Shown here piece by piece: positions 48,372-60,348 of a stretch of DNA of 64,000 nt. The notes beneath the pieces are model-generated. The model worked only from the letters and a program-made list of their open reading frames with translations, ran no database searches and was not told the origin of the DNA. The position numbers were made by a program, and so were the translations under genes. How positions within the stretch are numbered: position 1 is the first letter of the stretch; every line of letters starts with the position of its first letter. The stretch lies in contig NZ_CM001165.1 of the NCBI RefSeq assembly GCF_000213055.1, positions 5,602,945 through 5,666,944 on the forward strand, written 5' to 3'. The stretch comes from Streptomyces sp. Tu6071. Lineage in GTDB: Bacteria > Actinomycetota > Actinomycetes > Streptomycetales > Streptomycetaceae.

Positions 48372-48443
48372 GGGCGCGTAGCTCAGGGGTAGAGCGTCGC
48401 CCTTACAAGGCGAATGTCGGCGGTTCGAAACCGTCCGCGCCCA
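48372..48443 (+). tRNA. tRNA-Val(TAC)
   Basis: This 72-nt cloverleaf has acceptor arms GGGCGCG (48372-48378) and CGCGCCC (48436-48442), a D arm with GCTC and GAGC, and anticodon loop CTTACAA with TAC. The T arm has GGTTCGAAACC in its core, and A is the discriminator. CCA is not encoded. It lies exactly at the boundary between host genes and the phage-like segment, so its 3' half is a natural integration site. Confidence 0.93.
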
Positions 48444-48693
48444 CTCGGGATAAACGGCAGGTCAGGCCCTGCTTTCGGCCCCTCAACTCACCAGGGTTGG
48501 GGGGCCTTCTCGTGCCCAGAATCCACATGGAGTCCACATCCCCACCCGCGTCACTCGTATGAGGGACTGGACCCAGGCGGCCGACCGCATAGAGTGAGCA
48601 CCGACGAGGGCTGGCGCGACTCCCCTCGCGCGCCAGACGCGTGCTCGTCATCGTCCTGCGGACCCGGGCGGGGAGGCCCGACCCGCAGGCGCC

Positions 48694-48999: not shown

Positions 49000-49233
49000 G
49001 TGCCGCCAGAACCGCCCCCCGCCTGGGTCCTCGACCAGCGCCGCGCCGTCGGCGACCGCATCCGCACGGCCCGCCTGGAGGCGGCCATCACGCAGGAGAC
49101 CCTCGCGGAGCGCACCGGCCTCGACCGGAAGACGATCGTGCGAACCGAGGGCGGCACCCACAGCACGCTTCTGGACCACCTCCTCCTCATCGCCCGCGCG
49201 CTCGGTCGGCCGCTTGCGGACCTCGTGAGGTGA
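49000..49233 (+). CDS. small XRE-family HTH regulator
   Basis: This 77-residue protein is essentially one HTH_3 domain: GDRIRTARLEAAITQETLAE followed by RTGLDRKTIVRTEGG and LIARALGRPLADLV. The usual Cro/CI-type helix pattern is complete. There is no effector domain. No good Shine-Dalgarno site precedes the GTG at 49000, so the transcript may be leaderless. A palindrome GTACCA-N4-TGGTAC lies upstream. As the first plus-strand gene after the tRNA, it could be a prophage or cargo repressor, facing the nine-gene minus-strand operon end-on. Confidence 0.78.
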   Translation: MPPEPPPAWVLDQRRAVGDRIRTARLEAAITQETLAERTGLDRKTIVRTEGGTHSTLLDHLLLIARALGRPLADLVR

Positions 49234-49963: not shown

Positions 49964-50000
49964 GGTCGGGTCCTCTTCTCGGGGCGGGGCGTCGGCAACC

Positions 50001-50186
50001 CTACCCACGGCGGGGGGTGGCCGGGATGGTCGGGAGGCCGCGCGGCAGCCGCTCGTGTCGCGGCGGGCAGATCCGGTGCACATAGGCGTTCGGCCGTGCT
50101 CCGGAGATCGCGTCGCGGGGTATCGACTCGACCTCCTGGCCGGGCTCGAAAGGCCGGTCGCAGCGCTCGCAGGTGCGGGTTCTCAC
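50001..50186 (-). CDS. 61-residue CxxC microprotein
   Basis: This small protein begins with CERCDRPFEPGQEVESIP near residue 6 and contains VHRICPPRHERLP, giving a C-x2-C ... H-x2-C pattern. That pattern fits a treble-clef or zinc-ribbon metal site. The GTG start lies within the stop codon of the upstream gene (GTGA overlap, 4 bases), and GGGAGGA lies in range. No known family is recognised. It is the fourth member of the coupled chain 51002 to 50001. Confidence 0.7.
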   Translation of the reverse strand: MRTRTCERCDRPFEPGQEVESIPRDAISGARPNAYVHRICPPRHERLPRGLPTIPATPRRG

Positions 50187-50359
50187 GGTCGGTCCTCCCA
50201 GGGGGTGAGGCGGTACGTCTCGCGGCAGCGGCGGCAGGCGTAGAGGGCGCCGCCGGGGTCGGTGGCGGGTTCGGGTGCGGGCTGGATGAGGGCGACGTCG
50301 TTGGCGAGGTCGCGGTGCCACGCGCACCAGGCGATCGTGCGGCCGAGCTTGGCGGTCAT
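50183..50359 (-). CDS. 58-residue CxxC microprotein
   Basis: This protein begins MTAKLGRTIAWCAWHRDLAN. It has Cys and His ligands in WCAWHRD and a CRRC pair in LYACRRCRETYRL, so a single zinc knuckle is plausible. The ATG overlaps the previous stop (ATGA), and its own stop overlaps the next GTG, so it is coupled on both sides. The central part is low complexity (PAPEPATDPGG). The family is unknown to me. The translation coupling makes the reading frame credible. Confidence 0.7.
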   Translation of the reverse strand: MTAKLGRTIAWCAWHRDLANDVALIQPAPEPATDPGGALYACRRCRETYRLTPWEDRP

Positions 50360-50565
50360 CGGTCGTCCCTGCCGTAGCAGCAGCGGCGGCAGCCGCGGGG
50401 GAACCAGGCGGGGGCGTGCGCGGTGGCGTGGCGGGCGCCGAGGTCGACGTCGTCGATGCCGGGCTGGAGCGGGGTCTCGCACCACACGCAGGCGGCGCCG
50501 CGCCGCTGCTCCGCCGTGAGCGTCTCGACGGCCGGGAGGAGACCCTCGTCCACGTGGATGCTCAC
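50356..50565 (-). CDS. 69-residue CxxC microprotein
   Basis: This protein begins MSIHVDEGLLPAVETLTAEQ. Two cysteine pairs are seen, ACVWCETPLQPG near residue 26 and GCRRCCYGRD near the end, with His residues in ARHATAHAP. A zinc-ribbon-like fold is likely. The GTG start overlaps the stop codon of the 146-residue gene (GTGA), and its stop overlaps the next start (ATGA). Function unknown. Confidence 0.7.
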   Translation of the reverse strand: MSIHVDEGLLPAVETLTAEQRRGAACVWCETPLQPGIDDVDLGARHATAHAPAWFPRGCRRCCYGRDDR

Positions 50566-51002
50566 CGTGCCATCACCCCGGCCGGGCCGAACGCGGCGCC
50601 GAGCTGGGGCGCGGGCGTGAGCCGCCCGCTTCCGTCCGGGGGTTCGAGCCAGAGCCGCCCCTCACTCCCGATGCCCTCATGCGGGCAGTCGAGCACCCAC
50701 CCGCGCGGGCGCACGGTGAGCTGCCGAAGGTCCGCCAGGTCGTCCGCCTCGTCGGCCGGCACGAGCCACCACGCGAGCGGTTCGCGCACGGAGGCGAGGA
50801 CCGGACCGAGCGCGCCCGTGGGGCGGATGGCGCACATCGCGTCGATGCTCGAGTAGAGCGGGGCCTCAACGACACGCCACGCCCCTGTGGAGGGGACAGG
50901 AACGAGCTGGTCGTCGCGTTGCCATGTGCGCAGTGCTTGCTGGGGATTCGCCACGGTGTGCGTGAGCCACTGGCGCCCGATCTCACCTCGGATGACTGCC
51001 AT
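50562..51002 (-). CDS. hypothetical cargo-operon protein, 146 residues
   Basis: This cytoplasmic alpha/beta protein starts MAVIRGEIGRQWLTHTVANP. Notable segments are YSSIDAMCAIRPTGALGPVL, EPLAWWLVPADEADDLADLR and RGWVLDCPHEG. These suggest a compact mixed domain with one conserved-looking Cys-Pro-His. It is the first gene of the overlapping chain, 87 bases after the XRE-DUF5753 regulator in the same direction. I do not recognise the family and assign no function. Confidence 0.7.
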   Translation of the reverse strand: MAVIRGEIGRQWLTHTVANPQQALRTWQRDDQLVPVPSTGAWRVVEAPLYSSIDAMCAIRPTGALGPVLASVREPLAWWLVPADEADDLADLRQLTVRPRGWVLDCPHEGIGSEGRLWLEPPDGSGRLTPAPQLGAAFGPAGVMAR

Positions 51003-51089
51003 GACACGGACCGTAGGCGGCGGGGTTGCGCGCTCGCGCGGCGATTGCGCCGGATTGCGGACCGGGCGCGGGGGTTGTGCGGATTGCTG

Positions 51090-51932
51090 CTACGCGGGCC
51101 CCAGGGAGGCCCTGGCGCGCGCGATCAGGCGGTGTGCCTGCGTACCGCGAGCGGCGGTTTCGGAGAGCTGGTCCCAGACGCGCCCGTACAGGCTGAGGTC
51201 GTCGTCCGATTCCAGGGTCAGTTCGCTACTGATCGTCTCCACGATGACGCGGGCCTCGTCGTAGATCCAGAAGCCGTGTTTGAGAGCGAAGGGCATGGGG
51301 GCGCCCAGGGGCACGATGCCTAGGTCGATGCTGGGCAGGCCGATCAGGCTGACAAGCCGGTCAAGCTGTGCCGCCATGGCTTCTCGCTCGCAGATCAAGG
51401 CGTGGAGCGCGCCCTCCCAGATGAGGACGCGGAAGGTGCGGCCCGGCTCGTAGAGCACCGCCTGGCGGGCCATCCGGGAGTTGACCGCCGCCTCGGCGTC
51501 CGGCGGCGTTCGGTGGAGCTGCGAGTTGCACGCGAACAGGGCGCGTGCGTAGTCCGCGGTCTGGACGAGCCCCGGAATGACGGTTGCCTCATACCCGCGC
51601 ACGGCGCGCACTGCACGGTAGGTGGAGACGTAGCGGTCCTGGACGGCCCGGTGGCCAGCCGTGAGCTGACGGCGCCAGGACCGGTGCTGTGACTCCAGAC
51701 CCCGTAGGCGGCTCGTGAGGTCCGATGCTGCCGTCTCGTCTGTGGCTTGTGCCCAGGCGGCGAGGTCATCGGTGGTGGGGGTCTGCTTGCCGGTTTCCAG
51801 CCGGGAGACCTTCGACCTCTGCCAGCCGAGGAGGGCGGCAAGGTCTTTGCCCTGGAGGCCGGCCTCGGTGCGCAGCTCGCGCAGCCGCGCACCGAGGGCC
51901 TCACGCCCGGTTTGGAAGTCCGTCGCGCTCAC
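51090..51932 (-). CDS. XRE-family regulator with DUF5753 (Scr1/WhiJ type)
   Basis: This 280-residue protein belongs to the large Streptomyces family that includes WhiJ-type regulators. Its N-terminal HTH is ALGARLRELRTEAGLQGKDL then AALLGWQRSKVSRLETGKQ (about residues 10-50). DUF5753 follows (about 95-275), with YEATVIPGLVQTADYARALF, LIWEGALHALI and SSELTLESDDDLSLYGRVWD. Such genes typically sit next to small partner genes (DUF397 or DUF6879), as here. The GTG start at 51932 overlaps the DUF6879 stop (GTGA), so it depends on translation of that now-frameshifted gene. Confidence 0.9.
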   Translation of the reverse strand: MSATDFQTGREALGARLRELRTEAGLQGKDLAALLGWQRSKVSRLETGKQTPTTDDLAAWAQATDETAASDLTSRLRGLESQHRSWRRQLTAGHRAVQDRYVSTYRAVRAVRGYEATVIPGLVQTADYARALFACNSQLHRTPPDAEAAVNSRMARQAVLYEPGRTFRVLIWEGALHALICEREAMAAQLDRLVSLIGLPSIDLGIVPLGAPMPFALKHGFWIYDEARVIVETISSELTLESDDDLSLYGRVWDQLSETAARGTQAHRLIARARASLGPA

Positions 51933-52467
51933 GCGTCAGACGGTACCCGGCTCTGGTACTCGGCGGTGCGGACCGCGTGATGCCAGGCGGCATCGCGTAC
52001 CTGGCACGCCTGGAGCACGTCCTCGGCCGCCTCCGTCGTGGTGACGCCGAGCATCTCTCCCGCCTCCGTGAACGCGAAGCGGACAACGAGGCGGGAGTCG
52101 AAGACCCAGAAGTCCTCCGTGGGCAGGCGTAGCCGCGCGGCAGTGAGGCGGTCGAGGTTACGGATGTCCTCACCTGCCGCGACGTTGCCGAGACCGCTGG
52201 CGAGGAGGAACCGCTGCCCCTCGGTCGGAGGTGCGTCCAAGATGCGCACGCGCTCGAAGCGCTTCCCGAGGGCCACCTGTTTGGCGACGTTGAGCCGCCA
52301 CTCGTCGGCGGGTTCGGCTAGAAGGTCCTGCCCTGCCTTCCAGCGGGCCCATTTCGGGCTCTCTCCCGATCGGAGGCGTAGCCCTGCTGGGACTCCAGCC
52401 TCCAGGCGGTGTGCTCGAAGTCCTGGAAGAGGTGAGCGACCTCTGTGAACGGGAGGAGGTCGGCCAC
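51929..52467 (-). pseudogene. DUF6879 gene disrupted by a frameshift
   Basis: From the GTG at 52467 (AAGGAG upstream) the frame reads VADLLPFTEVAHLFQDFEHT, then AWRLESQQGYASDRE, and stops after an out-of-frame stretch. The rest of the family (WKAGQDLLAEPADEWRLNVA, KQVALGKRFERVRILDAPP, TEDFWVFDSRLVVRFAF) lies in another frame down to 51929. The break falls in a CTCTCT run at 52359-52365: removing one CT unit joins the two halves into SDRESPKWARWKAG. A real mutation, a phase-variable dinucleotide tract or a sequencing error are all possible. It sits between the 67-residue gene and the XRE regulator. Confidence 0.75.
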
Positions 52468-52468
52468 G

Positions 52469-52672
52469 TCACTCCTTCGGCGCGAAGCGGGTGAGCAGTT
52501 CGCGCGGGATCACGACGAAGGTCTCACTGTCCTTGACGTCGCGGAGCTGTGCGAGGTCCTTGGGGTCGGTGAGCTGATCGCCTTGGACCACGATGTCGCC
52601 GGTCTCCACGACTTCGTAGAGCGTGGGGCAACCGCCGTTGTCGCTGGTGGTGCCGATGAACCGCAGCGTCAT
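52469..52672 (-). CDS. 67-residue small protein paired with DUF6879
   Basis: This small acidic protein begins MTLRFIGTTSDNGGCPTLYE and continues VVETGDIVVQGDQLTDPKDL. It looks like a compact beta-sheet domain and ends EDxVVIPRELL-like (ETFVVIPRELLTRF). I recall proteins opening MTLRFIG upstream of DUF6879 or XRE pairs in other streptomycetes, but no function. AAGGAAG lies before the ATG. It is the first gene of the cargo operon, and its stop is one base from the DUF6879 GTG. Confidence 0.8.
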   Translation of the reverse strand: MTLRFIGTTSDNGGCPTLYEVVETGDIVVQGDQLTDPKDLAQLRDVKDSETFVVIPRELLTRFAPKE

Positions 52673-52700
52673 GTCTGCTTCCTTCGTGTCGGCTGAACGT

Positions 52701-52727
52701 CCGCTCAGGATGCTCCGAAATGAGCGG
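52701..52727. other. inverted repeat upstream of the cargo operon
   Basis: CCGCTCA (52701-52707) and TGAGCGG (52721-52727) are perfect 7-base arms 13 bases apart. They lie just upstream of the ATG at 52672 in the 297-base gap shared with the divergent DUF6233 gene. It may be an operator of the XRE regulator. The rest of that gap shows repeated GAGCAAC half-sites near 52,790. Confidence 0.4.
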
Positions 52728-52946
52728 CAGCGGGGGGCGATTGCTGAGAATTGCTCCTCTGCTCGGCGGAACGCTGAGCCCGAGCAACGCGCGAGCAACG
52801 GAAAGTTCCCCTTCCCGCGCATGGCAGGGAAGGCGGGTCAGATTGGCGTCGGCGGAGGCACGCGGACGTGGAGTGGCCCGCCGCGACGGGGGATGCGCGG
52901 CGAGCCAGTCTCAGTGTGGCGCCTCACCCGGCAGAAGCTCGGGTTC

Positions 52947-52968
52947 CGTTCGAACCTATTATCGAACG
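52947..52968 (+). promoter_or_regulatory. leaderless promoter with flanking inverted repeat
   Basis: A consensus-like -10 TATTAT (52957-52962) sits seven bases before the GTG at 52970, so transcription would begin at about the start codon. The perfect repeat CGTTCGA-N8-TCGAACG (52947-52953 and 52962-52968) brackets the -10 and should be a repressor site. It resembles, but does not match, the actinobacterial SOS box, whose half-sites are in the opposite order. Confidence 0.6.
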
Positions 52969-52969
52969 C

Positions 52970-53314
52970 GTGTCCGAACCCAGCCGTCTCGATCTCCTCC
53001 GCTTCGCGTACCGCGTCGTTGAGCAGCAGGCGCGCGCATCCCTCGCGCAGATCGCCGGATGGATCGCCGTCGAGGAGGAACGCGAGCGGGCGGTCGCCGC
53101 ACGCGAGGCGAGCCGCCCGACCCCACCCGAGTGGGTCGCCGAGCTGTCCATCGGCAAGGACCGGCGGCCGATCCTCGTGCACCTAGGGGGCTGCCACATG
53201 ATCGGGAAGCGCTCGCGCGGGATCACCCGCGACCAGACGTTGCGGGCGCTTGCCGAGGGTGTCGAGGCGTGCGATCACTGCCGGCCCGACGCCGCGCTGG
53301 GCTGGTTGGGGTGA
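52970..53314 (+). CDS. DUF6233 family protein
   Basis: This 114-residue protein of a Streptomyces family is of unknown function. It starts SEPSRLDLLRFAYRVVEQQA and has a charged helix (AGWIAVEEERERAVAAREAS). Then comes PPEWVAELSIGKDRRPILVH followed by LGGCHMIGKRSRGITRD, and it ends EACDHCRPDAALGWL. Cys and His residues in GGCHM and CDHCRPD could bind metal. The promoter places the transcript start at the GTG, so it is probably leaderless. The longer frame starting 34 codons earlier covers promoter DNA and is rejected. Confidence 0.8.
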   Translation: MSEPSRLDLLRFAYRVVEQQARASLAQIAGWIAVEEERERAVAAREASRPTPPEWVAELSIGKDRRPILVHLGGCHMIGKRSRGITRDQTLRALAEGVEACDHCRPDAALGWLG

Positions 53315-53649
53315 CTTGGCAATATTTTCTTGGGACCACATTGCCTCTCCCTTGACCATCCATTGAACATGAGTTGTTCCGCCCTTGGCACCGACTCACG
53401 TGAGTCAGTGGACCTAGACCGCAGGGTCGGCCGCGAACGGAGCGCCTAGCTGGACTGCGTACTGCGATAACAACTGGTGACCCATGGGTGCGATTGGGCC
53501 GCCACCATGGGTTTCTCGCAGCGAGGAGCGTGCAACGTTTTGCGCATCCCCTGAGCGATTTTCGTGCGCGACGAGGTTCTCCTGCGCGAGTGACTCACGC
53601 TGGTCTAGCCTCTAATCGGCCCCCTGGTGCAACCAGGGTGGGTAAAGAA
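53315..53649. other. lower-GC non-coding region with palindromes
   Basis: This 335-base stretch is distinctly lower in GC than its surroundings and carries no gene. It contains the perfect 14-base palindrome GACTCACGTGAGTC (53393-53406), a related GTGACTCAC at 53590-53598, two copies of CCATGGGT near 53482 and 53506, and the short hairpin CCCTGGT-GCA-ACCAGGG (53622-53638). It looks like a phage control region. Confidence 0.5.
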
Positions 53650-53678
53650 GCAGGGGGCGCGCTACGCGCACCCCCTGC
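53650..53678 (-). terminator. terminator of the 49-residue peptide gene
   Basis: GCAGGGGGCGCGC and GCGCACCCCCTGC pair with one mismatch around a three-base loop. The hairpin lies 38 bases past the peptide stop on the minus strand and is followed there by TTCTTTACCC, giving a partial U tract. Confidence 0.7.
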
Positions 53679-53715
53679 AGTGTGAGTTGGCTCCGGAGGT
53701 GGTCTCCGGTGCGGG

Positions 53716-53865
53716 TCAGCGCCTCAGCAGGTCGAGGACTAGTCGAACTGCTGACATCAGGAATGACCCGAGCACCAGGCCCCTCCGGGCCCAGCGCCGC
53801 CATGATGGCGCCAGCAGCATGCGCAGCAGGCGCTTCCAGCGCGACGGCTTATTTGTTCCTTTCAC
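53716..53865 (-). CDS. 49-residue cationic membrane peptide
   Basis: The peptide opens MKGTNKPSRWKRLLRMLLAP and contains WRRWARRGLVLGSFLMS, then a hydrophobic stretch ending LDLLRR. About a third of the residues are Lys or Arg, and one transmembrane helix fits. The GTG at 53865 has GGAGG five bases upstream. That site lies in one arm of a perfect 8-base inverted repeat, so the ribosome site would be hidden in a hairpin. A terminator follows. The size, charge, membrane helix and masked start recall type I toxins and phage small membrane proteins. No homologue is recalled; the toxin idea is inference. Confidence 0.65.
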   Translation of the reverse strand: MKGTNKPSRWKRLLRMLLAPSWRRWARRGLVLGSFLMSAVRLVLDLLRR

Positions 53866-53866
53866 A

Positions 53867-53907
53867 CATACCTCCGATTCGTGATCGTGTGTGCGATCAG
53901 AGGTATG
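53867..53907 (-). promoter_or_regulatory. hairpin masking the Shine-Dalgarno site of the 49-residue peptide
   Basis: On the minus strand CATACCTC (53907-53900) can pair with GAGGTATG (53874-53867), and inside it GATCG with CGATC around CACACA. Four bases of the GGAGG ribosome site (53875-53871) fall in the outer stem. Translation would need the stem to open. A second palindrome, GTGACAAGTCAC, lies at 53914-53925. Confidence 0.65.
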
Positions 53908-54014
53908 CATGCAGTGACAAGTCACCGCCTGAGGGTGAGCCTAGGGCGCAGGGTTCCTGCGTGTCCCAGGAACCGAGAGGAATCTCCTGCGGTCTCGGCT
54001 GAAAACGCGCCCAT

Positions 54015-54051
54015 GCCCCCGCACCCCCGCAGAAGGCGGGGATGCGGGGGC
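54015..54051 (-). terminator. terminator of the prophage lysis operon
   Basis: GCCCCCGCACCCCCGC and GCGGGGATGCGGGGGC pair with one mismatch around a five-base loop. The hairpin begins three bases after the last lysis-operon stop on the minus strand, with CGTTTTC following. Confidence 0.75.
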
Positions 54052-54054
54052 GAG

Positions 54055-54327
54055 TTACTGGCGCCAGGGAGTCAGGTCTAGGTCGGCGGGCGGGTCCGGA
54101 GGCGGGCCGGCCGGGGTGTCCGGGCCGACGCGCCCGCCCCAGCGCCACAGCTCGATCACGTAGCTCGTGAGGACGCGGCGCTGCGTGCGCTCGTCGCGCA
54201 GCTCGCGGTCCAACCTCTCGGTGATCGCGGTGAAATCCGACCGCCTGTTGGTCGCGCGGGACTGGCTCCAGGTGAGCAGGCCCACGACGAGCGCGACGAC
54301 TGCGGCGGCTACGGCGCCGATGTCCAC
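54055..54327 (-). CDS. phage small membrane protein after the holin
   Basis: This 90-residue protein has one N-terminal transmembrane helix (IGAVAAAVVALVVGLLTW), followed by a charged coiled-coil (RSDFTAITERLDRELRDERT) and a Pro-rich tail. This layout is common for accessory lysis or DUF2746-like proteins next to actinophage holins. It overlaps the upstream membrane-protein gene by 19 bases. The GTG at 54327 has GAGGAGGG upstream. It is the last gene of the late operon, followed by a terminator. Confidence 0.72.
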   Translation of the reverse strand: MDIGAVAAAVVALVVGLLTWSQSRATNRRSDFTAITERLDRELRDERTQRRVLTSYVIELWRWGGRVGPDTPAGPPPDPPADLDLTPWRQ

Positions 54328-54758
54328 GTGCCGCCCTCCTCTCTCTTCTCTGCCGGAGGCGGGTCGTCCATCCCGGCCGCCCAGACCACGCCGAGCGCGA
54401 AGGCGAGCCACCCGCACGCGGACCCGGCGGCTTGCCGGTACGTGGTGACCGCGGCGACGGTGAACGCGGCGCCCCACAGCGCGGCCGGCGCCGCGAGCGC
54501 CGCGAAGCCGAGGTCGTGCAGGCGGGCCCAGCACGGCCGGGCCGCGGCAACGAGCGCGAGCGCGCCGCAGCCCACCCACACCCAGCCGAGGACGCCCATG
54601 GGGACGTGCGCGGTGATCGCGGTGAGCCCGCGCGAGCGGGAGTACGACGGGTCGCCGAGCACGCCGATCGCCCCGTAGGCGGCCCAGCCGGTGCCGAGGG
54701 TCGCGAGGAAGGCGCGCCGCCGCCAGTGCTGGGGCGGCGGCGCGGCCGTGTCGGTCAC
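54309..54758 (-). CDS. phage membrane protein (four predicted helices)
   Basis: This 149-residue hydrophobic protein shows helices at about residues 20-37 (FLATLGTGWAAYGAIGVLG), 50-75 (MGVLGWVWVGCGALALVAAA), 80-105 (GFAALAAPAALWGAAFTVAA) and 115-132 (CGWLAFALGVVWAAGM). The GTG start overlaps the holin stop (GTGA). It could be a second holin-like or antiholin protein, or a superinfection-exclusion protein. No specific family is recognised. Confidence 0.7.
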   Translation of the reverse strand: MTDTAAPPPQHWRRRAFLATLGTGWAAYGAIGVLGDPSYSRSRGLTAITAHVPMGVLGWVWVGCGALALVAAARPCWARLHDLGFAALAAPAALWGAAFTVAAVTTYRQAAGSACGWLAFALGVVWAAGMDDPPPAEKREEGGTWTSAP

Positions 54759-54991
54759 CGGCTCGCCGGGGGGATGTCGTACCCGCGCGGGGTGTGGCGC
54801 GCGGCCCACCCGGCGACGCCGGTGATCGCGGTGGGCACGAGCGCGAGCACGAAGGGCTCCAGGGCGTCCGGAAGCCCGGCGACGAGCCCGGCGTGGTCCT
54901 GAACGGCGGTGAGTACGGCGAGGAGGCCGGTGCTCGCGAGGTACGCGGCGACGGTCGCGAACTTGACCTTCGTCTCTACGGGTTCAGCCAT
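54755..54991 (-). CDS. phage holin
   Basis: This 78-residue protein with two hydrophobic segments (AAYLASTGLLAVLTAVQ and FVLALVPTAITGVAGWAA) begins MAEPVETKVKFATVAAYLAS. That opening is shared, as far as I recall, by Streptomyces phage holins. It forms membrane holes that release the endolysin at lysis. It follows the endolysin stop by seven bases and is coupled to the next membrane gene, as expected for a lysis cassette. The short basic tail (ARHTPRGYDIPPASR) is typical. Confidence 0.85.
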   Translation of the reverse strand: MAEPVETKVKFATVAAYLASTGLLAVLTAVQDHAGLVAGLPDALEPFVLALVPTAITGVAGWAARHTPRGYDIPPASR

Positions 54992-54998
54992 GGGTTCC

Positions 54999-55934
54999 TC
55001 ACTTCACGATCTTGAGCGTCTGGCCGACGCGGATCACGTCGGGGTTCTTGATGCCGTTGGCCTTGGCGAGCTTGGCCACGGTGGTGCCATGCGCGGCGGC
55101 GATCCCGGAGAGGGTGTCCCCGGCGCGCACGCGGTACGTGGTGCTCTTCGCGGCCGGGGAGCCGGTGAGCTTGAGGACCTGGCCGACGCGGATCACGTTC
55201 GGGTTGGCGATGCCGTTGAGGGCGGCGAGCTTGGACACCGTCGTGCCGTGCTTCGAGGCGATGCCTGAGAGCGTGTCGCCCGCGCGTACCCGGTACGTGC
55301 TCGGCTTCGCGGCGGGCGCGGGCTTGGGCTTCGCCGGAGGCTTCGCGGCCTCGTGCTCCTGGCCGCCGTCGCCAGCGCCCTTGCGGGCCCACGCGCGCAG
55401 CTCGGCGCGGCTGCCGAAGTTGGCGACGTTCGTGTCGACGGGGCTGTCGGTGTACTGGTGGATGAGCCACGGCGCCTTGATCGACGGCTTGCCCGGACGG
55501 CCGTTGTACTCGGCGATCCACAGGCCATCGGCGGCGAACGACGTGGTGTCCCTGTTCACCCAGAAGTCGCGGTTGCAGTACAGGAGCACGCGGTGGTTCG
55601 AGCCCCGGAGCTTCTGCACGGCCTTGAGGAACTGGTCCTTCTCCGCGCAGGTGGGCGAGCCGTGCGCGCTCGACTCCCAGTCGCAGACGAGCATGTCGTA
55701 CTCCTGGCTCGCCGCCTGCCGGGCGAAGTACTCGGCCTGGGCCTGGACGTTGCCCGGGAGTAGGAAGTGGTAGAAGCCCACGACGAGACCGGCGCCGCGC
55801 GCAGTGGCGGCCTGCGAGGTCATGCGGGGGTTGGTGTAGGACGTGCCCTCGGTCGCCTTGATGATGGCGAAGTCGATGCCCTTCGTGGAGGGCGAGGAGG
55901 GCTGATAGCTCGCCCAGTCCTGGCCAGTGATCAT
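54999..55934 (-). CDS. phage endolysin: GH25 muramidase with two LysM repeats
   Basis: This 311-residue lysin has residues 1-190 as a GH25 domain: ITGQDWASYQ with the first catalytic Asp, VCDWESSAHG with the acidic pair, and LIHQYTDSPVDTNVANFG at the end. After an AKPPAKPKPAPAAKP linker, two LysM modules bind peptidoglycan (about 214-257 and 266-309), each with YRVRAGDTLSGIA. It cleaves host murein at lysis and is exported through the holin. The catalytic half shares long identical stretches with the stand-alone host protein at 1989-2549. The ATG at 55934 is used. Confidence 0.95.
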   Translation of the reverse strand: MITGQDWASYQPSSPSTKGIDFAIIKATEGTSYTNPRMTSQAATARGAGLVVGFYHFLLPGNVQAQAEYFARQAASQEYDMLVCDWESSAHGSPTCAEKDQFLKAVQKLRGSNHRVLLYCNRDFWVNRDTTSFAADGLWIAEYNGRPGKPSIKAPWLIHQYTDSPVDTNVANFGSRAELRAWARKGAGDGGQEHEAAKPPAKPKPAPAAKPSTYRVRAGDTLSGIASKHGTTVSKLAALNGIANPNVIRVGQVLKLTGSPAAKSTTYRVRAGDTLSGIAAAHGTTVAKLAKANGIKNPDVIRVGQTLKIVK

Positions 55935-56000
55935 GCGTGTCTCCAGACGTGACGAAGCCCCGCACGCGGGCGGGGCGGTGGTGGTGGAAGAGCAGCGCGG

Positions 56001-57635
56001 CTACTGGATGTCCGTGGCGACCGTCTGCGGCGACGTCGACTGATCGTCGATCCCGTTGGCCGTGGCCCACGTCCCGCGCATGTCGTTCCCGAACCGCTGG
56101 ATGCCCGTGTGCCCCGCCGCGATGTACAGGCCGTTCCTCGCAGGCTTCGACGCGCCTCCGGGCCTGCACTTGTTCGCCGTGATCGCACAGGCGTTGAGGG
56201 CCGTCGTGGACAGCCGGATCGCTGCCGGGACCGAGGAGGTGGCGCCGCCCTGGTTGGCCCCGTCCACGAAGTTGTCCCTGATCTGAATGTCGCTGCCGGG
56301 ACCGTTCACGAAGATCCCCGACTGCTGCGGGTCCCGCACCGAGTTCCCGATGATCTGCGAGTTGTCCGAGTTGTCCATCGTGATCCCGTACGCGCCCGCG
56401 CCCCAGATCACGTTGCCGCTGATCACGGTGTTGTTCTGGTACGACGTACTGATCCCGGTCCCCGAACTGTTCGCCACGACGTTGTCGCCGACGACCGCGC
56501 GCGACACCCGCTGGAGGCGGATCGCGGATTCCGTGCCGCCCGAACCGTCGATCGTGTTGCCGACGATCGTCACGTTGAGCACGGTGCCCGACGTCTCGCC
56601 GAGCGCCACGATCACGTTGTCGTACCCGGTGCCGCCCCGGAACGAGTTGCCGACGACAGCGAGGTTCCGCATCTGCTGCGAGGCGCCGGTCTGGTTGCCC
56701 GCAGTGTCCTTAGTGTCCTCGGTGTCCGTCAAGATCACCGTACGGAGCCTGACCCCGGAGCCGCAGCCCACGAACGTGTTGCCCGAGACGGTGGTGTCCT
56801 CGTAGTTGTAGGCGCTCACCGCGAACTGGAGGAGGCCCTCGAAGGAGTTGTCGGCGATGCGGATACGACGGTGCCACCGCCCGATCGTCGCCGAGTGCGA
56901 GCCCACTCCGCGCGGCCAGGCCGTCGTGCCGAACGTACCGCTCGCGCCGAAGTGACAGCCCGAGACCAAGATGTCCTCACAAGGCGTGTGGTCGTACGGG
57001 CCGAAGCCACCGAAGACCCCCACCGACTTCGCGAGGTCGAGCTGCACGGCCTCCGAGAAGCTCCGGCTCTGGTCCGCCGAGTTGTCGACGTAGCCGCGGA
57101 ACTTGCAGTTTTCGACGAGGCCGTGCGAGGTCGAGTTCAGCTCGATCGCGTGGTACCCGCTGACGTCCCGCACCTCCAGGTCGCGGATCGTGATGTCCGT
57201 GGCGTGCCCGATCGAGATGCACATGGCGTCGCCGGTCAAGCCCGCCGTCGTGCCCCTCATATTCCACAGGCCGCCCTCGATCGTGATGCGGCTCTCGCCG
57301 GTGTAGCCGCCCTTGTTCTGGTCGGCGTCCCCGTTGATGATCATCGTGTCGGCGACGTTCCGGCGGAACTCCGCGCCCGCCATGAGGGTCAGCCGGGTGT
57401 TCGAGTAGATCCGCAGCGTCGAGCCGATCATGTACGTGCCCGGCGGGACCAGCACCCACCCGCCACGTTGCGCGCGCGCCTGGTCCAACGCGGCCTGGAT
57501 GCCCGGCGCCGAGTCCGACGCACCGGACGAGTCCGCGCCGAGCTGCGTCACCACGATCATCTCGCCCGCCGCCATCGCCGCGAGACGGCCGGCGGTGATG
57601 TCCATGCCGGGCTGCCAGATCACAGGGTCCGCCAT
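56001..57635 (-). CDS. phage tail spike/fibre with right-handed beta-helix
   Basis: This 544-residue protein has an N-terminal adaptor (MADPVIWQPGMDITAGRLAA), then a Pectate_lyase_3-like start (TQLGADSSGASDSAPGIQAA, WVLVPPGTYMIGSTL). About 12 or more turns of parallel beta-helix follow, rich in the N-x-I/V-x-G-N pattern (SGNTFVGCGSG, VGNTIDGSGG, ISGNVIWGAG). Such proteins bind or cut surface glycans of the host. It lies between the minor tail protein and the endolysin, the normal place for a receptor-binding spike. No catalytic residues can be assigned. Confidence 0.85.
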   Translation of the reverse strand: MADPVIWQPGMDITAGRLAAMAAGEMIVVTQLGADSSGASDSAPGIQAALDQARAQRGGWVLVPPGTYMIGSTLRIYSNTRLTLMAGAEFRRNVADTMIINGDADQNKGGYTGESRITIEGGLWNMRGTTAGLTGDAMCISIGHATDITIRDLEVRDVSGYHAIELNSTSHGLVENCKFRGYVDNSADQSRSFSEAVQLDLAKSVGVFGGFGPYDHTPCEDILVSGCHFGASGTFGTTAWPRGVGSHSATIGRWHRRIRIADNSFEGLLQFAVSAYNYEDTTVSGNTFVGCGSGVRLRTVILTDTEDTKDTAGNQTGASQQMRNLAVVGNSFRGGTGYDNVIVALGETSGTVLNVTIVGNTIDGSGGTESAIRLQRVSRAVVGDNVVANSSGTGISTSYQNNTVISGNVIWGAGAYGITMDNSDNSQIIGNSVRDPQQSGIFVNGPGSDIQIRDNFVDGANQGGATSSVPAAIRLSTTALNACAITANKCRPGGASKPARNGLYIAAGHTGIQRFGNDMRGTWATANGIDDQSTSPQTVATDIQ

Positions 57636-57654
57636 GCGGAGCCCTCCTTCGAGG

Positions 57655-60348
57655 TCAGAGGGAGGCGATCGCCGGGTGAGCGAGCGCCACGGATGCCCCC
57701 GCGGCGTGCGTCTTCACGACGCCGTTGAGGGAGCGGGTCACGGTGAAGTCCTGCACGCCGCTCGCCGGTTCGCCGATCGCGGTGACGCGCATGGTCTCGC
57801 CGCCGATCGCGATGTCCACCGGCATCTCCGCCGGGTCCGTCGTCCACGGGGGCCCGTCCGTCGTACGGACCCGGACCGTGGTCGCCGTGGCGGTGAGCGC
57901 GGAGGCCAGCTCGGAGCCGTCCGTGCCGGCCTTCCCGTACGTCGGGTGGTCGGTGATCGCGGTCATCCAGGGACCGCCGGGCGAGCACACGAAGGTGATC
58001 TCCCACCGGCGCGGCAGCAAGGTCTCCGTCCAGCCCTCGACGATGAGGTCTACGGGCTCGCGGGAGATCCAGCCCGGCAAGTTTGCCAACCGGAGCAGGT
58101 CGCCCTCGCGCAGCCGCAGAACGGCGGGGATCAACCACGGGGCCTTGTGGAGCAGGACCCGTACGGCCGGGTAGCGAGCGCCGTCCCACGCCCCGAGGTG
58201 CAGCCTCCACGCCGCATGGTCCGCAGGCTGATCGTCGCGGTAGAGGGAGAGCGTGACCGACTCGTCGTACCGGCCGATCCCCGCCGGGGGGTCTTGCACG
58301 GACAGCGGACCCGTCTCCAGCACCGCGCGCGCCGAGCTGCCGCCCGCGCGCTGCACGGTGATGTCGTTGCGCACGTCCTGGTCGTCGTCCACCGGCTCCA
58401 GCGGCGGCGCCAGCCCCGGCGCCTGGTAGTCCAATGTGAGCGCGGGTTCCTGCGTGTACAGCGTCGCGCGCTCCCGGTACCGCAGCCCGATCCGGGCCGG
58501 GTCCTCGGTCAGCCGCCCGCCGTCCGTCTCGGCGCCGCTCTGGAGCAGCGTGAGGAGCGTGTCGGCGGTCTGCCCGCCCATCTGCGGCGTGCCGAAGCCG
58601 CGCTCGAAGGACAGCGGAATGTTCTCCTCGAGGGCGAGGCGCGTCATGCGGGTACGGACGCTCTCGCCCGCGTACGCCGAGTCGGCGCGGTCGTAGAGGC
58701 TGGTGTCAGCGGAGGGCAGCACGGCGAGGTGCCCGAGGCTGATACCCCCGGTATCGCCGACGTTTCCGCTCATGGCGACGCTGGTGACGTGCCCGGGCGC
58801 ACCGGTGACGAGGGCTTCGTTCCCGGTCCCCACTGCGTTCTCCACGGGAATCCATCCGTGGTGGTACTCGGTCTGCGCCCCCCGAAGTCGGGCGGTGATC
58901 TCCAAGCGGTTCCAGGTCTGGAAGAAATCAGCGTTGCGGATCGTGTGGTAGAGCTGGAAGAGCTGCTGCCCCAGTGCTCCGTGCCCCGTGAACCAGTACC
59001 GGTCGGACGCGACATCCAAGGTGAGCCGCCGGGCTACGCCTGTGGTCTGCACGTCCAGCGCCCGGAACTTCCCCGGGGGTGGGGTGTCCATGCGGTAGAC
59101 GTAGCTGACCATCCAGTCCCCATCAGGCCCACGCGGGACCTGCTGCCCGAAGGACGCGATGCCTGAGAAGGTCGGCACGGGCAGCGATCCGGCGAGGGTG
59201 TCGTCGGCCGCCATCGATGCGCCGGCCAGGATGAGGGGCTGCACGCGGGCGATCGGGCTGTACGCCTGCGTGGCCTCGCGCCCGTCCTCCATCGGCCAGT
59301 ACGCCACCGGGGAGCCGGACGGGATGCGGCGGCGAAGCGGGGAGTCCAGGGCTTTCACGCCCTGCCCGTACCGGCGTAGCACTCCGGCCGCCTCCACGCT
59401 CGTCCACACGTCGTGCTCGCCGGGGGTCCATCGCTGCGGCCACTCTGAGACCTCTCCCACGAACCGCGGCCAACGGTCCGTTACGGCGGTCGCCGTCGAG
59501 GCGGTCCAGGTGCGCCCGGTCTCGTCGGTGAGCGAAGTCGCGCCGGGCTGCGCCGTCGTGAGGTCGAGGTCCGCGAGGATCGGCCCGTCCTCGGAGGAGC
59601 GGACCTGCGCGCGGTAGATGGCGCCGGTGAGGCCGCGGCGGGCGATCGTGAGGGGGACCGCCGCCGCTCGGATCGGTGTGGGCCGGGAGAGGAGGACGTC
59701 GCGGCCGAACCTCGTCCAAGGGCCGTCCATCGAAGCTGACCAGTAGGTGCGGACGCGGCTCAGCCCGGTATCGGTCGTGTCGTGCGTGATGCGCAGAACT
59801 GCCCTCCGGGGTAGCTCCGCCGGCGGGGCCCACCCGTAGTTCCACACCGTGCCGTCCGTGGTGGTCCACACGAGGTAGAGGAACCCGGAGTAGAGGTACA
59901 TCTCCCACGCCCTCAGGGCGGGGTCCGTCTCGTCCCACATCGAGATGAGGTGCTGCTGCGTCGTCGTCGCGTCCCAGCCGTAGGGCTCCACATCGACCCG
60001 CACATCGAGGGCGTCCGTCGTGAGGTCGGCGGTATACGGGGTGGAGAGCCGGGTGTCCGGGGTGCCGTCCACGGCGAGGTGAACGGGCGCGCCGGGCACG
60101 GTGAGGCGCACGGGCGTGTTGCGGCCGATGAGCCCGTAGTACGGCGACATGGCGTTGCGCGGGCTGTACTTCCCCGCGCGGTTGTTGATCGTCAGCGGCA
60201 CGCTCGCGGGGTCCGCGCTCGTGCCCGCGTTGCGCAGGCCCCGGGTGTGGGTGATCGCGTCCCGGGTGTAGACGTCCTTCGTGATGTCCGTCCACGCGGT
60301 GCCGGTCTTCAGCTCGACGCGGACATCGAGCGGATCGTTCGGGAACAA
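57655..60348 (-). CDS. phage minor tail protein (tail tip)
   Basis: This 897-residue beta-rich structural protein opens MFPNDPLDVRVELKTGTAWT and DITKDVYTRDAITHTRG, the usual start of Streptomyces minor tail proteins. It includes a lectin-like jelly-roll segment around residues 300-450 (PVAYWPMEDGREAT, MVSYVYRMDTPPPGKFRALD) and ends with a KAGTDGSELASALTATATTV domain. It follows the tape measure immediately. The start is probably TTG at 60348, with GGAAGGGG six bases upstream; no ATG or GTG fits. It would form part of the tail tip or hub. Confidence 0.83.
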   Translation of the reverse strand: MFPNDPLDVRVELKTGTAWTDITKDVYTRDAITHTRGLRNAGTSADPASVPLTINNRAGKYSPRNAMSPYYGLIGRNTPVRLTVPGAPVHLAVDGTPDTRLSTPYTADLTTDALDVRVDVEPYGWDATTTQQHLISMWDETDPALRAWEMYLYSGFLYLVWTTTDGTVWNYGWAPPAELPRRAVLRITHDTTDTGLSRVRTYWSASMDGPWTRFGRDVLLSRPTPIRAAAVPLTIARRGLTGAIYRAQVRSSEDGPILADLDLTTAQPGATSLTDETGRTWTASTATAVTDRWPRFVGEVSEWPQRWTPGEHDVWTSVEAAGVLRRYGQGVKALDSPLRRRIPSGSPVAYWPMEDGREATQAYSPIARVQPLILAGASMAADDTLAGSLPVPTFSGIASFGQQVPRGPDGDWMVSYVYRMDTPPPGKFRALDVQTTGVARRLTLDVASDRYWFTGHGALGQQLFQLYHTIRNADFFQTWNRLEITARLRGAQTEYHHGWIPVENAVGTGNEALVTGAPGHVTSVAMSGNVGDTGGISLGHLAVLPSADTSLYDRADSAYAGESVRTRMTRLALEENIPLSFERGFGTPQMGGQTADTLLTLLQSGAETDGGRLTEDPARIGLRYRERATLYTQEPALTLDYQAPGLAPPLEPVDDDQDVRNDITVQRAGGSSARAVLETGPLSVQDPPAGIGRYDESVTLSLYRDDQPADHAAWRLHLGAWDGARYPAVRVLLHKAPWLIPAVLRLREGDLLRLANLPGWISREPVDLIVEGWTETLLPRRWEITFVCSPGGPWMTAITDHPTYGKAGTDGSELASALTATATTVRVRTTDGPPWTTDPAEMPVDIAIGGETMRVTAIGEPASGVQDFTVTRSLNGVVKTHAAGASVALAHPAIASL

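Follow-up and report, generated by a model that had tools for sequence, protein, structure and literature searches.

Prophage morons, in the definition used here (taken from an excerpt of PMC8065619), are lysogenic conversion genes with their own promoter and terminator, and the type I mRNAs tisB and timP, as described in an excerpt of PMC11228461, encode short membrane-type peptides with the Shine-Dalgarno (SD) sequence held in a stable stem. According to an extract of a 2025 paper (PMC12390103), type I systems had previously been known only from Proteobacteria, Firmicutes and Tenericutes, before the cyanobacterial case that it reports. Among the papers listed by literature searches, in a collection that leaves many journals uncovered, no title or beginning of an abstract dealt with the present locus or with a Streptomyces type I system. 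One listed paper (PMC5775266) reportedly concerns antisense transcripts in Streptomyces.

The unit described here is encoded on the minus strand; the genome that carries it measures 7.5 Mb and came out closest to Streptomyces in our searches. With morons it shares a place in the late region of a prophage, a promoter-like sequence and a terminator, a deviating base composition, and presence or absence between relatives; unlike typical morons, it encodes an orphan micropeptide, and its promoter is putative. With tisB and timP, in the account excerpted above, it shares a short, putatively membrane-type peptide and an SD in a predicted stable stem, which 5′ trimming opens in silico, but no antisense RNA was found for it, its host is an actinomycete, and its peptide resembles no family detectably in four libraries. 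Like the holin of the Streptomyces phage mu1/6 type, its product would be a small membrane protein encoded in the same prophage region, but from a separate operon beyond a closing hairpin and with a different sequence. The features are collected in Table 1, in coordinates of the window, by which we mean the whole 64-kb stretch of DNA that was analysed.

Table 1. Features of the micropeptide unit and its immediate surroundings.
Feature	Position	Strand	Remark
Terminator-like hairpin CCCCCGCA..TGCGGGGG ending the lysis operon	54050-54016	minus	by eye
Inverted repeat GGTTCCTG-N7-CAGGAACC, spanning the −35 candidate	53974-53952	minus	possible operator
Promoter candidate GGGACA (53967-53962)-18 nt-TAGGCT (53943-53938)	53967-53938	minus	weak
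In-frame open extension from GTG at 53925 (69-aa alternative)	53925-53866	minus	also open in F-5630
Palindrome GTGAC-TT-GTCAC	53925-53914		as RNA, small hairpin GCGGUGA-CUUG-UCACUGC possible
SD-sequestering hairpin: 8-bp outer plus nested 6-bp stem, or 12-bp helix	53907-53867	minus	
Shine-Dalgarno GGAGG, 5 nt before GTG	53875-53871	minus	
49-codon ORF, GTG start, TGA stop	53865-53716	minus	cationic membrane-type peptide
Intrinsic terminator, 13-bp stem then TTCTTT	53678-53650	minus	28/29 bases identical in F-5630
Weakly conserved tail of the shared block	53649-53524		82/119 aligned bases

The prophage ends in a 46-nt repeat of the 3′ part of tRNA-Val, found at 48399-48444 and again 54.1 kb rightward, outside the window, and the gene beside attR carries a Pfam Phage_integrase domain (E 4e-14). 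Consistent with the original prediction of a stand-alone unit between cargo and lysis operon, the unit is set off by the lysis hairpin, its own promoter-like sequence and its terminator, and is flanked on one side by the lysis cassette (a GH25/LysM lysin and a mu1/6-type holin, the latter at 54991-54755 on the same strand) and on the other by cargo genes and the attachment site. The lysis genes have 72.6% GC and the cargo genes 70.7%, whereas the unit has 60.5%. The next closest related prophage locus, L045, matches the window at 88.9% over the lysis genes up to 54015 (holin 92% identical) and at 90.5% over 50897-49000; on the lysis side homology reaches no further than 54015, immediately past the lysis hairpin, and the genes between there and 50897 differ. 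L045 thus lacks the unit at a place whose flanks it shares with the window, and its slot holds a different small ORF of 88 aa from a TTG or 72 codons from an ATG. That slot gene (L045:6061-6279) lies behind the lysis operon with a hairpin of its own after it, as judged by eye, and the slot is an exchange hotspot worth cataloguing.

Several other features of the cargo side deserve mention in their own right. The 77-aa HTH gene at 49000-49233, just inside attL, has a near-copy just outside attR, and the cargo-like gene at 50356-50565 likewise has a look-alike there, which makes at least one more besides the HTH gene (both by eye); these look-alikes suggest a possible tandem element or remnant at the same tRNA. 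A DUF6879 gene (51929-52276) overlaps an XRE/DUF5753 regulator gene (51090-51932), and the two make up a pair of regulators within the cargo zone.

The searches turned up only four peptides of this kind: those of the window and of Streptomyces sp. NRRL F-5630, and two, P0001 and P0002, known as proteins without DNA, which were recovered by protein searches that gave P0001 and then P0001 together with P0002 (2 of 3 candidates at E ≤ 1). The sole DNA relative found is F-5630, the one locus among 239 candidate stretches in a scan of genome contigs; the piece used, L006, covers the initial 17 kb of a contig of 56 kb. Its block aligns to window positions 54213-53524 at 82% identity, distributed as 64/71 in the leader, 133/150 in the ORF, 28/29 in the terminator and 82/119 beyond it. 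The F-5630 unit sits in an apparent prophage remnant with its upstream gene cut off, and its neighbours differ on both sides (a HAD hydrolase, an NsdA-family regulator and CRISPR-like repeats). The CRISPR-like array adjoining this remnant, at L006:5400-9500, has a 61-nt period.

Elsewhere the unit is rare. In overlapping genome samples that cover part of Streptomyces, 3 of 295 genomes matched at E ≤ 0.001, of which only the own genome is real, the other two being 44% partial matches judged chance after inspection of the DNA; two further samples matched in 1 of 394 and 1 of 248, in each case the own genome, and a sample of 392 gave no match, which says little because the own genome was not part of it. 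In another sample 22 of 392 matched, the own genome at full length and the rest as pieces of about 25-60 nt, including another stretch of the own genome that spans the lysis hairpin. Searched at the DNA level with the 276-base unit, the own genome yielded, at E ≤ 0.001, only the unit itself. Phages gave no match to the peptide by tblastn and, by blastn, only a 31-nt stretch in two Rhizobium phages, and a blastn search of plasmids with the unit gave none. Among viral contigs the unit occurs only in UViG 651285011, which is identical to the window where compared, and so in 1 of 34 holin-bearing viral loci; a palindrome match in another contig (L078) proved to be unrelated DNA. Besides the window's own peptide (L044), one of these 34 loci, L059, has a short, SD-preceded ORF for an unrelated cationic product that includes a hydrophobic stretch, and weak tblastn matches just behind the holin (E 0.37 and above) were judged chance. 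The original prediction had looked to related phages for conservation of hairpin and peptide; both are kept in F-5630, but the unit is mostly absent from related phages.

That a hairpin masks the ribosome site was borne out in silico: in the 95-nt leader of the window the per-base probability that the SD is unpaired is only 0.00-0.04, and the GTG, like the SD, is predicted to be almost fully paired in the full leader. In its details the predicted architecture needs correction. The perfect 8-base repeat is there, but its arm, GAGGTATG, contains GAGG rather than the whole GGAGG, the first G being paired only in a 12-bp variant (CATACCTCTGAT/ATCGGAGGTATG); the nested stem also exists, with 6 bp (TGATCG/CGATCA) rather than 5. 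The 12-bp helix and the nested form compete at similar energy: the 41-nt element folds best, with the 12-bp helix included, at −16.9 kcal/mol, and the nested form has −15.5. Shuffling, in line with the folding check proposed beforehand, left no sequence as stable as the 91-nt leader of the window (z = −5.4, 0/200) and gave z = −7.6 for the 291-nt RNA of the whole unit; the same 91 nt in F-5630 gave z = −4.3 (1/200 equally stable), and a 96-nt F-5630 stretch offset upstream only z = −2.0 (8/200). In the F-5630 leader the SD is unpaired with probability 0.00-0.31, the upper value belonging to the first G only. Removal of the 5′ arm in silico raised these probabilities to 0.43-0.88 in the window and 0.90-1.00 in F-5630, with the start codon still predicted to be mostly paired after 5′ trimming.

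The 8-bp inverted repeat alone is unremarkable in the window, since 278 perfect repeats of this length with loops of 3-30 occur across its 64 kb, since 14 such hits, counted over both strands and partly overlapping, also carry GGAG or GAGG within one arm with a start codon following, and since among 46 GGAGG-N4-8-RTG sites the unit ranks 6th for SD occlusion and 23rd for folding energy. What counts is the near-total occlusion of the SD together with the conservation of the hairpin in F-5630. Five differences separate the two 41-nt hairpins, and all pairs survive them in both folds; when as many changes of like kind were placed at random, the outcome was as good with P 0.031 (nested) or 0.071 (12-bp). 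Two pairs of the nested fold are altered one-sidedly in F-5630 (A-U to G-U and G-C to G-U). Of the compensatory changes that had been proposed as a check, no two-sided one separates the window from F-5630, and the conservation of the hairpin therefore backs the fold only mildly, although every pair is left standing.

The promoter-like pair GGGACA-18-TAGGCT is the only one detected on the minus strand within 53480-54080. TAGGCT is the sole TANNNT on that strand between 53990 and 53640, GGGACA matches TTGACA at 4/6 positions, and both boxes and their spacing are identical in F-5630; because a stricter sigma-70 scan of 52700-54300 detected no promoter at all, we regard the pair as a candidate only. 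The RNA start predicted from it lies near 53930, upstream of the upper arm, and would place the whole hairpin inside the transcript; a 5′ end within or after that arm was the outcome against which the original prediction had staked itself. The further upstream palindrome that had been noticed, GTGAC-TT-GTCAC, is present (1 in the window vs 0.06 expected, its F-5630 copy having an altered centre), but there are two upstream inverted repeats rather than one: GGTTCCTG-N7-CAGGAACC is a single copy in the prophage and retains 6-bp arms in F-5630. The downstream terminator was found as predicted.

An antisense RNA from the region 53315-53650, by contrast, had been suggested but finds no backing. A consensus-based scan, by which other promoter types would be missed, detected no plus-strand promoter pair in 53480-54080 and no TANNNT −10 on that strand in 53640-53935. 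Behind the F-5630 terminator there is a weak antisense-strand pair, TTTAGC-16-TAAGTT (L006 10255-10228; 3/6), which is without counterpart in the window. The region 53315-53650 itself holds a terminator-like hairpin resembling one that follows a tRNA-like end elsewhere in the genome. This hairpin, GACTCACGTGAGTC at 53393-53406, has one other exact copy in the genome, directly after a tRNA-like 3′ end (by eye), and probably acts as a terminator downstream of the plus-strand DUF6233 gene; an operator was considered and dropped, the sole other copy being terminator-like. No SOS (LexA) box was found at the unit, the nearest match to the motif given in an excerpt of PMC9380542 being at 52963. No family scored above its gathering threshold in an Rfam 15 scan of 50000-58000, the sole match (53648-53564, E 0.6, 20.8 bits vs a gathering score of 77.3) lying outside the leader.

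The encoded peptide is as predicted, a 49-residue cationic product with a GTG start and one hydrophobic helix. Its net charge is +12, it is rich in Arg and Trp, and its hydrophobic stretch averages 1.6-2.0 on the Kyte-Doolittle scale, a value marginal for a membrane span. All four known peptides have 49 aa, a net charge of +11 to +12 and a peak hydrophobic stretch from residue 29, and their alignment has 27 invariant columns. An AlphaFold2 model gives a single helix over residues 9-48 (mean pLDDT 73, pTM 0.33); a search of solved structures gave one match, at E 0.41, judged chance. The window peptide has no match in Pfam, NCBIfam, PHROGs or PADLOC, and database searches gave a function for none of its relatives.

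The sequence of the micropeptide carries no sign of purifying selection. The ORFs of the window and F-5630 differ by 13 nonsynonymous and 4 synonymous changes (dN/dS 1.37), as compared to 0.20-0.53 for six nearby prophage genes against L045, five of them at 0.20-0.42 and one, 50562-51002, at 0.53. For the ORF a ratio of 0.25 is rejected (P 0.0014), one of 0.42 weakly so (P 0.027), and one of 1.0 is not rejected (P 0.42). Third-position GC comes to 0.76 for the window ORF and 0.80 for its F-5630 copy, which is low next to the other predicted genes, a set chosen partly by this same measure and mostly at 0.8-0.97. Because change without selection would keep the frame open, the charge at or above 11 and the hydrophobicity with a probability of 0.026-0.088, depending on the starting sequence, their retention is weak support for coding. 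With a dN/dS of 1.37 and yet a frame, charge and hydrophobicity that are kept, the evidence tips towards none of three readings: a membrane peptide constrained in composition, an RNA, or slow decay.

A type I toxin-like unit would have an inert primary mRNA, activated by cutting or refolding of the 5′ arm, a peptide that depolarises the host membrane, and an antisense partner encoded in trans or missing. We think this unlikely. The short cationic membrane-type peptide and an SD that is masked in the complete leader and, in silico, released by trimming do resemble the two-step control of type I toxins described in the excerpt of PMC11228461; however, the consensus scan detected no plus-strand antisense promoter over the window unit and only a weak one behind the F-5630 copy, the own-genome search at E ≤ 0.001 finds the unit alone, and both a LexA box and a match in the four libraries are lacking. 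A classical antisense-paired type I toxin is not supported. The unit could also be read as a structured non-coding RNA, with the terminated transcript of about 280 nt as the product and the 49-codon frame incidental: leader, ORF and terminator are similarly conserved, synonymous changes are not in excess, and the 291-nt fold has z = −7.6. Against this improbable reading stand the GGAGG placed 5 nt before a GTG, the failure to reach any Rfam family, and exactly 49 open codons in all four members, although the protein search behind two of them biases toward this. Decay, in which a remnant with no present function is carried along with the prophage, would accord with the lack of purifying selection on the ORF and with the apparent prophage remnant, its upstream gene truncated, in which the F-5630 copy sits, but hairpin, promoter boxes and terminator are intact in both copies, and when P0001 and P0002 are used to polarise the changes by eye, the window and F-5630 peptides each show derived residues. 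We consider decay quite unlikely.

Two further readings concern the extent of the product and its task. The frame is open across the hairpin from GTG 53925 in both genomes, and the predicted RNA start is 5 nt upstream of that GTG; one could thus envision a 69-residue product translated almost leaderless, with the 49-residue form as an internal second start controlled by the hairpin, which ribosomes on the first frame would open. In the extension, synonymous and nonsynonymous changes number 3 each (ratio 0.24), but six changes are too few to decide and constraint on the hairpin alone could explain the ratio, the two other relatives, P0001 and P0002, are catalogued in databases as 49 aa, and no clear SD precedes 53925 by eye. 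This is very unlikely in our estimation. A modulator of prophage lysis (an antiholin or second holin), which the original prediction had also entertained, is extremely unlikely: the lysin and holin genes do adjoin the unit on the same strand, but the terminator-like hairpin at the end of the lysis operon stands between, L045 has the same lysis cassette without the unit, and the only one of 34 holin-bearing viral loci that has it is identical to the window.

The earlier observation is thus confirmed as real, and its interpretation partly supported. We see about an even chance that the unit is a prophage moron making a tightly limited membrane peptide for exclusion or growth modulation. A moron fits because the L045 slot holds another gene, the flanks differ in F-5630 and the GC content deviates. 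From the observed anatomy, with its exchangeable slot, conserved hairpin, promoter-like boxes and terminator sequence, we infer transcription, translation, membrane action and role. The unit would be a module of a single gene, transcribed on its own and exchangeable, that occupies the slot from lysis operon to attachment site, its own promoter giving rise to a short mRNA with SD and GTG start inside a hairpin that, by the in silico folds, would strongly limit translation. The product would be a 49-residue membrane-associated helix, most likely a conversion peptide present at a low level in the lysogen whose target would be the host membrane, where it might, for instance, counter superinfecting phages or modulate growth; until the leader opens or is cleaved, the hairpin may hold down the amount of a peptide that could do harm. 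It is distinctly improbable that the unit represents type I toxins in actinobacterial prophages in a form without an antisense partner, its cationic membrane peptide silenced by the leader hairpin alone until the leader is cleaved or the in-frame 69-residue frame is translated.

In kind the unit is ordinary, most plausibly a moron, set apart by an SD that is hidden unusually well and by the orphan status of its peptide. It marks out a very small family of orphan peptides and, downstream of the Streptomyces prophage lysis operon, a site of gene exchange. If the peptide is not membrane-active, it would be an ordinary moron; if it is, the unit would allow type I-like toxins or exclusion peptides to be put to the test in actinomycetes.
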